A stretch of DNA of 64,000 bases. Source: Blautia parvula (GTDB taxonomy: Bacteria > Bacillota > Clostridia > Lachnospirales > Lachnospiraceae). Positions within the stretch are counted from its first letter, which is position 1. Each line of letters starts with the position of its first letter. The notes below the pieces were generated by a model that was given only the letters and a program-made list of their open reading frames with translations, did no database searches and had not been told where the DNA came from. The stretch is from contig NZ_CP084061.1 in the NCBI RefSeq assembly GCF_020215665.1, positions 3,332,501-3,396,500 of the forward strand, read 5' to 3'. Position numbers and translations under genes: made by a program. Shown here piece by piece: positions 19,182-25,823 of the stretch.

Positions 19182-19447
19182 ACCGTGCAGCCGGGGAGAT
19201 AGCGGTGCCCTGTACCTGCAATCCGCTACAGCAGGGGTGATGCCAAATCTGAGGGGCTTTCTTTGCGGAGCTGCCCTTTATAAGTGGCGCTGACGTCTGG
19301 GTCTTGCGCAACAGAACTCTATGAACCGTGTCAGGTCAGGAATGAAGCAGCACTAAGTAGAATCTTCTGTGTGCCGCGAGGGTGCCTGGGCCGAGTTAAC
19401 TGTAGAGGTAACGTCCGTGAAGGGGTTTCGAGGTGCGGCGCACGGTG
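19182..19447 (+). ncRNA. ffs: Signal recognition particle RNA (large, Firmicute type)
   Basis: About 266 nt. The S-domain core is recognisable (GTCAGGTCAGGAATGAAGCA at about 19328-19347), which binds Ffh, and the 5' part forms an Alu-type domain as in Bacillus and Clostridia. The ends pair (ACCGTGC at 19182 with GCACGGT at 19440-19446). It has a consensus promoter and is followed by a terminator shared with the dedA 5' region. Ends are inferred from pairing and promoter spacing. Confidence 0.9.
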
Positions 19448-21624: not shown

Positions 21625-21762
21625 TTCACGATCCGCCTTCCTGTATGATTCCGTCCGCATTGCGGGCAACGGGCCCTGGCCGTTGTTTCTGAATTATACT
21701 ACACTCCGCTTTTGTAATGCAATAGCCAAGAACGGCCCAGTATAAAAGTCTTTCCCATTTCT

Positions 21763-21836
21763 TTCATAAATTCTTCAAAAATTTCAGAAAAGCTTTATTG
21801 TGCTGTCATAAATTCCTCACATTTCTTGGATATACT
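21763..21836 (+). promoter_or_regulatory. PhoB-box-like direct repeats and -10 of small RNA gene 1
   Basis: Half-sites TTCATA (21763) and TTCAAA (21774) are 11 bp apart; GTCATA (21805) and CTCACA (21816) are again 11 bp apart and 42 bp downstream. CTGTCATAAAT at 21803-21813 matches the first half and spacer of the classical Pho box. The last half-site ends 9 bp before the -10 TATACT (21831-21836), the spacing seen in PhoB-activated promoters, and there is no consensus -35. Binding by an OmpR/PhoB-family regulator is inferred. Confidence 0.6.
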
Positions 21837-21842
21837 GTAATT

Positions 21843-21960
21843 GTCAGCAAGGAGGACGGCAGCAGGAGCCGGACCTCACAAAAAAGCCAACTGACTTATT
21901 TATATAGATTTTTCTTTTCCCTCCCTCTTTTGCCGGTACTTCGCAGAGTACCGGCTTTTT
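21843..21960 (+). ncRNA. Unrecognised small RNA 1 of a tandem pair
   Basis: Predicted transcript of about 118 nt with no convincing ORF. GTCAG (21843-21847) can pair with CTGAC (21891-21895), closing a 5' domain. A segment shared with copy 2, AAGCCAACTGAC plus a U-rich stretch (21884-21920), follows, then a 9-bp perfect terminator stem GCCGGTACT/AGTACCGGC (21932-21955) with TTTTT. An AAGGAGG at 21849-21855 has no start codon nearby. I do not recognise the RNA family. Confidence 0.6.
21932..21960 (+). terminator. Terminator of small RNA 1
   Basis: Nine-base perfect stem GCCGGTACT/AGTACCGGC with loop TCGCAG and a T5 tail. Confidence 0.88.
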
Positions 21961-22042
21961 CCTGTCCGAAAAGAGTCTTTCGTTTCTTCTTCAGATTCTT
22001 TTTAAATATTTTTAAAATGCTTCAGAAAAGCTTTATATCCTT

Positions 22043-22074
22043 GTCACAGAATCCTCACATTTGCAGGTTATACT
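22043..22074 (+). promoter_or_regulatory. PhoB-box-like repeat and -10 of small RNA gene 2
   Basis: GTCACA (22043) and CTCACA (22054) are 11 bp apart and end 9 bp before TATACT (22069-22074), the same geometry as copy 1; the two -10 elements are exactly 238 bp apart, as are the flanking TTCAGAAAAGCTTTAT boxes. Confidence 0.58.
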
Positions 22075-22080
22075 TTAATT

Positions 22081-22217
22081 GTTGTTGAAGAAGACAGCAG
22101 CTGCATTACAGTGATATATGTGGCTGCCGGGCTTCGCCTAATAAAGCCAACTGACCTATTTACATAGATTTTTCTTTTCCCCCTCTTTTGCCGGTACTCG
22201 CCAAGGTACCGGCACTT
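22081..22217 (+). ncRNA. Unrecognised small RNA 2 of a tandem pair
   Basis: Predicted transcript of about 137 nt. The 5' domain differs from copy 1 and is 22 nt longer (GCAGC 22097-22101 pairs with GCTGC 22123-22127). The 3' segment AAGCCAACTGACCTATTTAC onward and the terminator are conserved. An 18-codon GTG-initiated frame exists but lacks an SD. The pattern of a divergent 5' domain and conserved 3' domain suggests two related regulators with a shared functional end. Confidence 0.58.
22190..22217 (+). terminator. Terminator of small RNA 2
   Basis: Stem GCCGGTAC/GTACCGGC (22190-22197 and 22206-22213) followed by ACTTTTC; weaker U tract than copy 1. Confidence 0.65.
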
Positions 22218-22238
22218 TTCAGCTGTTGGAAAAGGTAA

Positions 22239-22508: not shown

Positions 22509-23204
22509 ATGCCAATCAATGGTTTCAACAAAACAACGCTTCTGGATTACCCCGGCAAAATAGCTGCCACCATTTTTCTGGGAAGCTGCAATTTCAGGTG
22601 TCCCTTCTGCCATAACAGCGGGCTTGTCCTCTCACCCGGAGAACAGCCGGTCATTCCCACGGAGGATGTGCTTAAAGTTCTGAAAAAACGCCAGGGCATT
22701 CTGGAGGGGGTCTGCATCACAGGAGGAGAACCCACCCTGGACAAAGATATCTTCTGCCTTATAGACAGGATAAAGGAGCTTGGCTACCCGGTCAAGCTGG
22801 ATACCAACGGCTCTCATCCCTGGATCCTGAAAAAACTGATCAACAATAAGATGGTAGATATGGTCGCCATGGACATCAAATCCTCCAAAGAATCTTATGC
22901 CAGAGTTGCAGGCAGCAAGCATCTGGACTTAAAACCAATCTGTGAATCCGTGGATTTCCTTATGTCCGGCAGTGTCCCCTATGAATTCAGGACAACCGTA
23001 GTCAGGGAGCTGCATACCCAGGAAGATTTCCGCTCCATCGGAAACTGGCTTGCCGGGTGCAGCGCCTACTACCTCCAGGCCTATAAGGACTCCCCTGAAG
23101 TCATAAGGCCTGGATTCAGCAGTTATTCCAAAAGGGATTTGGATTATTTCTGTCTTATCCTGTCAAGAACGATTCCTGCGGTTTATATCCGGGGTATCGA
23201 TTAA
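22509..23204 (+). CDS. nrdG: Anaerobic ribonucleotide reductase activating protein (radical SAM)
   Basis: 231-residue radical SAM enzyme. The CNFRCPFCHN motif (about residues 26-35) supplies the 4Fe-4S cluster, and GGEPT (about 76-80) binds SAM. The N-terminal GFNKTTLLDYPGKIAATIF is typical of the NrdG2-like group in Clostridia, which generates the glycyl radical on anaerobic ribonucleotide reductase; a related pyruvate-formate-lyase-type activase is the alternative. No nrdD lies in the window. Its 3' end overlaps the antisense repeat-rich gene by 42 bp. SD GGGGGA is 5 nt from the ATG. Confidence 0.85.
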   Translation: MPINGFNKTTLLDYPGKIAATIFLGSCNFRCPFCHNSGLVLSPGEQPVIPTEDVLKVLKKRQGILEGVCITGGEPTLDKDIFCLIDRIKELGYPVKLDTNGSHPWILKKLINNKMVDMVAMDIKSSKESYARVAGSKHLDLKPICESVDFLMSGSVPYEFRTTVVRELHTQEDFRSIGNWLAGCSAYYLQAYKDSPEVIRPGFSSYSKRDLDYFCLILSRTIPAVYIRGID

Positions 23205-25823
23205 ACGGTACCAGTAGCCAAAGCGCGGCATGGCAGCTTTGCCCTGCGTTTTGGCTGCCTTGAAGTTGGGGAAGCCGAACATACCTGCCATGAGACATTC
23301 CTGCCGGTCATAAACACCCGGAACACCCAGTATGTACCGGCCGTCATCTCTTCTTCTGCCCAGGAGCAGGTAATGATAACGGTAATATCCATGTCTCAGA
23401 AAATTGTTGTTCATCAGCCCCCTGTCTCTTCTGGCAAGTATCCGCAGCTCCGCAGGTGTTATCTGTCTGCAGTCCACAATCTCCCCGTCTGAAAACGGAG
23501 CAAATACGGCAGGCTGTCTGGCGGCCTGTGCGGACTGCCCGTGAAGCTCACCTTCCTCCGGACTCTGTACCGTCTTCTCTGTCACTTCTTTTTCCATCTG
23601 CCTCATGTTGCGGATGGCATCCTCATCCTGGTCCAGTTCTTCCAGAAGGTTCACTGCATCCTCCTCACGGTCACCTGCCGGGTTCCACGTAGACTGCTCT
23701 GCTGCATCCGTACTGCCGGATGCTTCGATCCGCATTTCACTGTCCGGATACTGGTCCCTTCCGAAGATTTCATGATCAATCGTTTCCCGGTACAATTCTT
23801 CTTCTGTGTATGGAGGCCTCTCCATGTCCGGGGCTGTGGTGTCCGGATTCCGGTCTGTGTCCGGCATTGCAGTATTCCGGTTCTGGTTCATATCCGGCAT
23901 TGTGGTATTCCGGTTCTGGCCCATATTCGGTACTGCTGCGTTCCGGTTCTGGTTCATATCCGGCATTGTGGTATTCCGGTTCTGGTTTATATCCGGCATT
24001 GTGGTATTCCGGTCCTGGCCCATATTCGGTACTGCTGCGTTCCGGTTCTGGTTCATATCCGGCATTGTGGTATTCCGGTTCTGGTTTATATCCGGCATTG
24101 TGGTATTCCGGTTCTGGTTTATATCCGGCATTGTGGTATTCCGGTTCTGGCCCATATTCGGTACTGCTGCGTTCCGGTTCTGGTTCATATCCGGTATTGC
24201 GGCATTCCGGTCCTGGTCCATATTCGGTACTGCTGTGTTCCGGTTCTGGCCCATATTCGGTATTGCTGTGTTCCGGTTCTGGCCCATATCCGACCGTGAC
24301 GGTTCCATAACCGGCTGTACTGTATTTTCTGTCCGTGAAGGGGCGACCGGCTCCATTCTCTGCTCAGATCGTTCCTCCTGTCCTGTTTCCGGTTCATCCT
24401 CCTCATAATGCTGTGGAAAATAAGTTCCCCTCTCATTTATACGAGGCGGCATGTAAGGGTCCCCCTCTGTCCGGGACGGCATTGCCTGCCTTCCTTCCTC
24501 TGTTTCAGAAGATTCATTGGAACGGTTCTCCTCCATGCGTCTGCCCGGCGCGGAAGTCTCATTATCCCGTCCTATGACTGGTGGATAGCCCCAATCCCGG
24601 TGGCCTGCATTCGAGAAATTACTCCTCTCTTCCCGGTTTCTATCAGGAGTATTCATACCTCCCTGTCTGAATGTATTGGACGGATATCTGCCCTGCCAAG
24701 GAGTGTCATCCATGGAATTATTCCTTCCGGCTCGGTTACCATCCACAGCATTATTTCCCGCTTCCCAGTCCGCCTCTATGGCATTCTCCCTCTCTGCGCG
24801 GTTTCCTCCCACGGCATTGTTTCCCGCTTCCCAGTCTGCCTCCATGGCATTTTCTCTTTCCGTGCGGTTTCCTCCCATGGCATTGTTCCCGTCTGCACGA
24901 TTTTCCTCCATGGCATTGCCTGTCTCTGCACGGTTTCTTTCCATGGCATTCCCTGCTTCTGCACGGTTTCTTTCCATGGCATTCCCTGCTTCTGCACGGT
25001 TTCCTTCCATGGCGTTCCCTGCCTCTGCACGGTTTCCTTCCATGGCGTTCCCTGCCTCTGCACGGTTTCCTTCCATAGTATTTCCTCTCTCTGCACGGCC
25101 AGCATTCGTTGAATCCGTTTCTATTTCCACTGTTGTGTCTGTGCGGTAATCCATTTCCTCCAGATTATCATCCGGGCTCTCCCCGCTGAACAGATTAACT
25201 GTCTCTTCAGAATGCTCCGCTAACGGCAGGGAACCCTCTTCATCGTCCAGAGCAACTGGCCCCTCTGCTTCCATGAGCGCCTCCGCTGCTGCAACACCCT
25301 CCGGCAGTTCATCCTGCACAGCCTCCGGTCCTGTCTCCAGCTCCTCTTTCTGCATATTATTATTTGTCTCAGTGGCTCTGTCCGCGTTCCGGGATCTGTC
25401 CTCCTGCATTCTCGGGAGCCTGATTTCTTCCAGGCGCACAGGACGATCATCCCACCCTGTACCATACATGATTCCATCTCCGGTCAGCATGACCAGACCG
25501 CTCAGGTCGTTCAGTCCGTACGCAGTGCCTCCCATTCCCTGATCCGGTACTTCCGTCTGAAACTGGACCGTATCACCTGCCAGGTCACATTCTCCAAGAT
25601 AAATGCCTTCACATCCGTCGCTTTTTCTCACAAACCCGTAAATTTTACAGGGTGCCTCCTCTTTTCCATAGATCCCTTGAATCCGATAGTTCATGCGGCA
25701 CTTACCATCCCGGGCCTCTACTTTGATAAATCCCTTCCCATTTCCTTTCTTTCCATCCGGGTACTCATATACATACGCAACAAATCGCCGATATCCAGCC
25801 AAATTTTCTTTCTCCAATACCAA
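23163..25823 (-). CDS. Large repeat-rich protein with conserved end domains (DUF6128-like)
   Basis: 886 residues. The N-terminal 135 residues (RRFVAYVYEYPDGKKG...) and C-terminal 110 residues (FLRHGYYRYHYLLLGRR...YWYRLI) look like globular, conserved domains; the family name is from memory and tentative. The middle is acidic, hydrophilic and holds two separate 11-residue repeat arrays. No signal peptide or membrane segment is seen. The reading starts at TTG 25823 without an SD; a TTG at 25802 with GGAG 9 nt upstream is likelier. It is convergent with nrdG. Function unknown; the low-complexity middle suggests a scaffold or spore-coat-like role, but nothing proves it. Confidence 0.7.
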   Translation of the reverse strand: MVLEKENLAGYRRFVAYVYEYPDGKKGNGKGFIKVEARDGKCRMNYRIQGIYGKEEAPCKIYGFVRKSDGCEGIYLGECDLAGDTVQFQTEVPDQGMGGTAYGLNDLSGLVMLTGDGIMYGTGWDDRPVRLEEIRLPRMQEDRSRNADRATETNNNMQKEELETGPEAVQDELPEGVAAAEALMEAEGPVALDDEEGSLPLAEHSEETVNLFSGESPDDNLEEMDYRTDTTVEIETDSTNAGRAERGNTMEGNRAEAGNAMEGNRAEAGNAMEGNRAEAGNAMERNRAEAGNAMERNRAETGNAMEENRADGNNAMGGNRTERENAMEADWEAGNNAVGGNRAERENAIEADWEAGNNAVDGNRAGRNNSMDDTPWQGRYPSNTFRQGGMNTPDRNREERSNFSNAGHRDWGYPPVIGRDNETSAPGRRMEENRSNESSETEEGRQAMPSRTEGDPYMPPRINERGTYFPQHYEEDEPETGQEERSEQRMEPVAPSRTENTVQPVMEPSRSDMGQNRNTAIPNMGQNRNTAVPNMDQDRNAAIPDMNQNRNAAVPNMGQNRNTTMPDINQNRNTTMPDINQNRNTTMPDMNQNRNAAVPNMGQDRNTTMPDINQNRNTTMPDMNQNRNAAVPNMGQNRNTTMPDMNQNRNTAMPDTDRNPDTTAPDMERPPYTEEELYRETIDHEIFGRDQYPDSEMRIEASGSTDAAEQSTWNPAGDREEDAVNLLEELDQDEDAIRNMRQMEKEVTEKTVQSPEEGELHGQSAQAARQPAVFAPFSDGEIVDCRQITPAELRILARRDRGLMNNNFLRHGYYRYHYLLLGRRRDDGRYILGVPGVYDRQECLMAGMFGFPNFKAAKTQGKAAMPRFGYWYRLIDTPDINRRNRS
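23823..24284 (-). repeat. 33-bp tandem repeat array A (14 units)
   Basis: Encodes 14 units of 11 residues, consensus N/G-QNRNTTMPDM, with one degenerate terminal unit. Units alternate in a higher-order order (AAVPNM and TTMPDI/M types), indicating block duplication. Confidence 0.9.
24711..25104 (-). repeat. 33-bp tandem repeat array B (about 12 units)
   Basis: Encodes about 12 units of 11 residues, consensus NRAEAGNAMEG, degenerating towards DWEAGNNAVGG at the C-terminal side. It has the same unit length as array A but a different sequence. Confidence 0.88.

Follow-up and report, generated by a model that had tools for sequence, protein, structure and literature searches.

A 64,000-nucleotide stretch of the Blautia parvula genome (a single contig of 6.25 Mb), hereafter the window, harbors a tandem pair of modules that, judging by the sequence evidence, are real small RNA (sRNA) genes of a known kind, members of a family not represented in Rfam 15. 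We lean towards the view that this pair is a csRNA/LhrC-like envelope-stress set, most likely under the regulator encoded beside htrA, the gene of a quality-control protease, and not a part of the Pho response. Sequence comparison revealed the anatomy of the genes, a covarying hairpin, a conserved activator box, a different repeat in front of pstS, and, in other genera, HtrA-type genes that are preceded by the box.

The two modules lie in register, 238 bp apart, and fill the region 21752-22220. Each consists of a direct-repeat box followed, after 9 bp, by TATACT, then about 120-140 nt of sequence, and a strong stem-loop with a U tail; both copies contain the activator box, the -10 element, a structured 5' domain, a CU-rich stretch and a terminator. 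A mechanical repeat search delineated an upstream part of 112 nt (71% identity), a 3' segment of 50 nt (88%) and a terminator region of 50 nt (76%) common to both modules. Together with the coordinates, this search bears out a previous sequence-only reading of this DNA, which described a shared promoter, 3' segment and terminator, with the -10 elements exactly 238 bp apart. The 11-bp half-site repeats located 9 bp before TATACT in both copies were confirmed on the sequence, as was the lack of a -35, none being paired with either -10 in a promoter scan of the pair. The claim that there is no ORF led by a Shine-Dalgarno (SD) sequence holds as well: the longest ORF across the pair, 21798-22088, starts with TTG, and no SD was seen before it by eye.

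Both genes are on the forward strand. In copy 1, the activator box GTCATA-N5-CTCACA spans 21805-21821 (half-sites GTCATA, 21805-21810, and CTCACA, 21816-21821), and the -10 TATACT is at 21831-21836. The predicted RNA of about 118 nt (21843-21960), which would start 7 nt past the -10 and is delimited by the promoter and the terminator, is conserved in G008 and G009; it can fold into a 5' hairpin (21851-21877) and includes the CU-rich stretch UUUCUUUUCCCUCCCUC (21911-21927), by sequence and fold a candidate SD-pairing region, and an intrinsic terminator with a good U tail (21932-21960) detected by the terminator scan. In copy 2, the box GTCACA-N5-CTCACA occupies 22043-22059 (half-sites GTCACA, 22043-22048, and CTCACA, 22054-22059), and the -10 TATACT is at 22069-22074. 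The predicted RNA of about 140 nt (22081-22220), again with a putative start 7 nt past the -10, has homologues found by both model and pattern searches. It contains the hairpin GAAG-A-C...G-GG-CUUC-GCCUAA (22085-22142) that defines the family, supported by covariation and by a match of 56.5 bits (E 2.8e-14) to R2, a covariance model of this hairpin built from 54 sequences, copy 2 itself among them. This is followed by the CU-rich stretch UUUCUUUUCCCCCUC (22171-22185), with a putative function suggested by sequence and fold, and by a terminator stem-loop with a weak U tail (22190-22220) that is apparent as a folded hairpin and absent from the consensus terminator scan. In the minimum-energy fold of copy 2, the lower stem GAAG/CUUC is not formed, and GAAGAAG pairs instead with the 5' half of the CU-rich stretch. 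Both RNAs have modest fold z-scores (-2.35 and -2.84). Nearby, on the reverse strand of the window, an ORF of 886 aa (23163-25823) contains long runs of near-identical repeats.

A DNA search of 61 genomes, the own genome and 60 relatives, matched 16, three of these only via short stretches (L012, L014 and L016) that were dismissed as chance. Both copies are kept in G008 and G009, and G015 has one copy in the same kind of genomic place. Nine further congeners carry a homologue of copy 2 at other places (G002 at two); in two congeners examined, it is flanked on one side by a gene that by eye encodes a serine dehydratase subunit and on the other by one for an isocitrate/isopropylmalate-type dehydrogenase. 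Copy 1 was seen in three genomes. R1, a model of the same hairpin built from 11 sequences, matched 16 of the 20 genus genomes, including G006, G010 and G016, which the DNA search had missed, and, at E 0.1, 29 of 397 family genomes; R2 matched 25 of 392 order genomes. The box sequence was not part of any RNA query (pattern, R1 or R2), and the box consensus GWCAYA-N5-NTCAYA-N9-TATAMT usually precedes the homologues of the copy 2 hairpin. The matches split by its presence: 21 of the 30 R1 places have the box with 0-1 mismatches and the other nine differ at five or more positions, and 15 of the 25 R2 places have it with 0-1 mismatches and the other ten differ at six or more. The boxless matches (9/30 and 10/25) were treated as chance; several of them fall, by eye, in coding sequence. 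G020 (L064), with a good-looking hairpin and no box (7 mismatches), was counted as a miss. All 15 boxed R2 places are inside Lachnospiraceae, and the matched genomes without a box comprise eight outside and two inside this family. The covariance-model search of Lachnospiraceae genomes that the sequence-only reading had suggested recovered homologues of the copy 2 hairpin in many of them. A pattern scan of an 84,980-species collection yielded 78 loci, mostly, by record title, from Lachnospiraceae genera (Blautia, Mediterraneibacter, Faecalicatena, Dorea and relatives); some are titled only Eubacteriales, Firmicutes or Clostridium sp., and one, from a flavobacterium, was judged to be a chance match. 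The box is present with at most two mismatches of 17 at 75 of the 78 loci, compared with 12 of 1,560 random places, some of which are perhaps true sites.

The hairpin itself covaries, as the sequence-only reading had required of the 5' domain across homologues. Alignment A3 combines 53 of the 63 distinct pattern cores with the window copy; the Hanstruepera locus L158 (8 box mismatches) was left out as chance, and L166 (6 box mismatches) and L169 (at a contig end, where the box is untestable) were retained. Across these 54 distinct sequences, 98.0% of the cells are paired, against 31.5-49.0% in slid-alignment controls. There are 84 double-change cells, against 32.1 in shuffles, with none of the 500 shuffles reaching 84, and changes on both sides occur in 8 of the 15 hairpin pairs. 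The number of double-change pairs and that of further pair types do not exceed the shuffles (272 and 499 of the 500, respectively, reach the observed value), and one pair is broken (A-C) in 7 of the 54 sequences, including the window copy. Because the lower stem, like the R/Y classes of the 5' arm and two 3' positions, was prescribed by the query pattern, it carries no weight as evidence of covariation. In the variants that were found without the query pattern (L132, L305, L307 and L308), the internal loop beside the lower stem is altered and CUUCG is kept. The CU-rich stretch varies within the hairpin family, being present, under a loose rule, at 47 of 77 loci, and the hairpin may therefore have a separate function. 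We know of no csRNA counterpart of this hairpin.

The 5' domains of the two copies had been described as different. They do differ, but they are not unrelated: copy 1 can fold as GAGG-A-CGGC..GCCG-GA-CCUC, in the same layout as GAAG-A-C..G-GG-CUUC of copy 2. Copy 1 is the second-best match to the family model in the window, a weak one (11 bits, E 0.78) that is not significant alone. Its GAGG/CCUC, compared with GAAG/CUUC of copy 2, would represent compensation in the lower stem; in its upper stem, inspected by eye, there is one compensatory change in G008 and one broken pair in G009. Copy 1 is thus a probable diverged, shortened paralogue of copy 2, and the notion of a duplicated, diverged sRNA gene pair of the regulator-controlled type is supported by sequence.

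In a search of the whole window against Rfam 15, only the SRP RNA and two tRNAs reached the gathering score; neither copy did, in line with the earlier statement that no recognised RNA family was apparent. The SRP RNA is of the large bacterial type (RF01854, 192.5 bits) and lies at 19183-19445. Below the threshold, the sRNA region matched snoR30 (20 bits), Spy779816 (20 bits) and L10_leader (15.6 bits), and a search of six homologous loci, 18,708 bases in total, at E up to 1 yielded a single tRNA. The L10_leader match could be taken to mean that the 5' hairpin mimics, as a decoy, the site of ribosomal protein L10 in the rplJ leader (RF00557), such that the RNA titrates L10. This reading, to which we assign hardly any probability, draws on the string GAAGACAGCAG..CUGCCG common to the hairpin and the true rplJ leader of the same genome, and on the weak match itself (E 3.7). 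The conserved family segment GGRCUUCGCC is, however, absent from the L10 leader, R2 matches neither of the true L10 leaders, L020 and L022, even when E values up to 10 are allowed, and no L10 match appeared at the six homologous loci at E up to 1, where a match this weak could not show. Membership in RF00557 was rejected, given 15.6 bits against a gathering score of 44 and 80.8 bits for the true leader elsewhere in the genome; the eleven bases at window positions 22090-22100 (GAAGACAGCAG) that are shared with this leader were judged a coincidence. It is also very improbable that the modules are not genes and represent a decayed repeat or a coding remnant: the compensatory changes, the conserved promoter and terminator, and the lengths of the hairpin core, 49-69 nt and not in steps of three, argue against this reading.

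The box is rare in its exact form. The pattern GWCAYANNNNNNTCAYANNNNNNNNNTATAMT, drawn up after the homologues had been viewed, occurs twice in the window and in none of 100 shuffles, and three times in the 6.25 Mb genome and never in the reversed control; the three genomic sites are those of the two modules and of an unrelated C-rich sRNA. With two mismatches allowed, the genome has 24 sites and the reversed control 21. The exact box was found at 34 sites in 150 family genomes, against 3 control matches, and 31 of the 34 were examined (all except G036:C32, G127:C1:3130653 and G160:C43:184951). At 15 of the 31, a terminator comes next, with no SD-led ORF within 200 nt. At four, all in other genera (L131, L136, L139 and L141), the box precedes an HtrA-type protease, with the Pfam domains Trypsin_2 and PDZ in the first three and PDZ only in L141; these four proteins and the HtrA of the window's genome (G000) all match NCBIfam degP_htrA_DO below its curated cut-off. 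Four HtrA-type genes among 31 sites would have a probability of about 3e-8 under an assumed rate of 3 HtrA-like genes per 3000. The box further precedes OmpR-type regulator genes at two of the 31 sites by Pfam and at a third by similarity (a regulator-like ORF of 132 aa), and a dnaK-like gene, identified by eye, at one.

The third exact box of the genome, outside the window (G000:C1:5956478-5956575; L096, L333), precedes the C-rich RNA GAUAGUUGAUAAACCACUCACUAUCUCCCCCCUC with its terminator, upstream of a carbamate-kinase-like gene identified by motif and by eye. The family of this RNA (GAUAGUUGAUNAACCACUCACUAUCUCCCCCCUC plus terminator, at most 3 mismatches) was found 20 times, in 16 of 299 family genomes, and never in the reversed control. 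At every one of these 20 places the box is present, with 0-3 mismatches of 17, and ends 7-8 nt upstream; G300 carries two copies in tandem, 198 bp apart. The C-rich family has no Rfam match at the gathering score, and a CU-rich stretch is present in this family as well as in both window copies. A fourth candidate sRNA, also outside the window (G000:C1:4237108; L116, L293), resembles the window copies in its 3' part (AAAGCCAA.., GCCGGTA terminator), lacks the C-rich run and follows a two-mismatch box; with 24 such sites against 21 in the control, this box alone proves nothing.

The htrA promoter of the same genome reads TTCATA-N5-TTCACA-N9-TAAAAT. In all 20 genus genomes, the own one included, htrA has the box geometry with TTCATA half-sites (1 repeat mismatch of 11 in 17 genomes and 2 in three) and a -10-like hexamer 9 nt on; these promoters are homologous and not independent, and scans of this sort are expected to turn up half-boxes with two mismatches by chance. 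In Blautia, the htrA boxes have T, not G, at the first position. With a weight matrix derived from 64 sRNA boxes, the htrA promoter is the top-ranked site in G000, G008 and G009 alone (8.9-9.4 bits); in the other nine regions it scores more than 4 bits only in G004 (4.9). Because the half-sites differ in the first base and the matrix seldom unites both groups, two regulators of one type are possible. The htrA gene is divergent from a mutS2-regulator-kinase run, with mutS2 at its head, in 11 of the 11 genus genomes examined (the own one included) and in G022, of another genus, where the regulator adjoins htrA and a proper box was not found. The boxed HtrA genes of L136 and L141 are likewise divergent from mutS2. 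Within the genus, the htrA-side regulator (L292 6334-7038, reverse strand; L319-L329) is 92-100% identical and the kinase about 63-97%; the regulator is below the cut-off of all NCBIfam models among the matches listed (25 of 39). OmpR-type DNA-binding domains were matched 65 times in the genome, and a box scan upstream of 30 of these found none at the gene of the htrA-side regulator itself and a single one-mismatch site, about 1.4 kb upstream of the domain in L278. Altogether, these observations point to the htrA-side regulator as the activator of the sRNAs, short of proof.

The identity of the regulator is where the competing explanations diverge. It is possible, if doubtful, that the same sRNA genes respond to another OmpR-type regulator, neither the htrA-side one nor PhoB. 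The 65 OmpR-type domains leave room for such a regulator, as do the T that replaces G in the htrA boxes, the regulator genes of other kinds downstream of the box in other genera (L146, L148 and L152) and a two-mismatch site (G000:C1:5820759) upstream of a metallophosphoesterase gene that is followed by a regulator gene; against it, the exact box is common to HtrA-type genes in four other genomes, in two of which HtrA is divergent from mutS2. Activation by PhoB under phosphate limitation, as implied by the earlier description of the promoters as PhoB-type, appears unlikely. The OmpR/PhoB-type direct repeat in that description stands, and the half-site GTCAYA and the geometry resemble the E. coli Pho box; in addition, a looser pattern finds one opposite-strand site just past pstS in each of G019 and G011. 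The Pho assignment, in contrast, fails on the pst promoters: those of pstS in five genomes (G000, G008, G019, G011 and G365) carry TTTACATACATTTAACA-type repeats (TTTACA-N5-TTAACA-type) instead, and in the same genome the sRNA box differs from them. Of six pst regions scored with the sRNA-box matrix, five have no site above 4 bits, and the sixth, G146, where pstS was not located, has one of 4.3 bits; there is no phosphate-uptake gene among the identified genes downstream of boxes. The recurrence of the TTTACATACATTTAACA-type repeat upstream of pstS (L097, L099, L100, L102 and L103) makes it a candidate for the Pho box of Lachnospiraceae. In place of Pho control, the reading with the best support is control by envelope stress.

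Under the envelope-stress scenario that we favor, we infer the transcription of the pair, its regulator, signal and targets, and the role of the hairpin as follows. The tandem genes would give rise to two trans-acting sRNAs, one of about 118 nt and the other of about 140 nt. Their activator, an OmpR/PhoB-type response regulator and most likely the product of the mutS2-regulator-kinase run divergent from htrA, would bind the 11-bp direct repeat and activate a promoter that lacks a -35. The CU-rich strand, by analogy with the csRNAs and LhrC, would base-pair with the SD regions of target mRNAs and prevent their translation, and the conserved 5' hairpin would stabilize the RNA or bind a partner. 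The pair would then serve as the RNA arm of a response to envelope or secretion stress, comparable to CiaR-csRNAs or LisR-LhrC; we know of no sRNA tied to the CssRS secretion-stress system. More broadly, there is about an even chance that a Lachnospiraceae envelope-stress regulon includes at least two unrelated sRNA families, one with the GAAG/CUUC hairpin and one with GAUAGUUGAUNAACCACUCACUAUCUCCCCCCUC, under a single box shared with HtrA, and that the deeply conserved hairpin, whose CUUCG end is constant, acts as a functional module in its own right and not as a mere stabilizer.

Among the matches listed in the open-licence literature, none concerned an sRNA set linked to a two-component system in Lachnospiraceae. 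The csRNAs of the streptococcal CiaRH regulon are several sRNAs under one two-component regulator, with a direct repeat of N5 spacing ten nt before the -10, terminators and an unpaired SD-complementary region (PMC3091779, PMC8186281). Like RNAs of the csRNA/LhrC kind, the pair combines a direct-repeat box upstream of the -10 and a terminator with the lack of an ORF, and the N5 spacing is that of the csRNAs (PMC3091779, PMC8186281). The CiaR box is NTTAAG-N5-TTTAAG, whereas the box here is GWCAYA-N5-NTCAYA, and by its box the pair was not placed among csRNAs proper. LhrC1-5 of Listeria is a multicopy sRNA, as is the pair, strictly LisRK-dependent and induced by envelope stress, with UCCC motifs that bind mRNA; the paper on it reports no LisR consensus (PMC4132741). 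Unlike LhrC, the RNAs described here belong to no Rfam family at the gathering score and come from another bacterial class. The CssRS system exerts two-component control over htrA-type proteases and has its regulator pair next to an htrA-type gene (PMC12802291), and the regulator-kinase pair adjoining htrA in the 11 genus genomes and G022 is likened to it by this arrangement. If the envelope-stress reading is correct, a dominant gut family would have two RNA families, together with their promoters and a candidate regulator, that could be tested in culturable Blautia, and a further case of multicopy sRNAs under envelope-stress control would stand beside those of the streptococci and Listeria.
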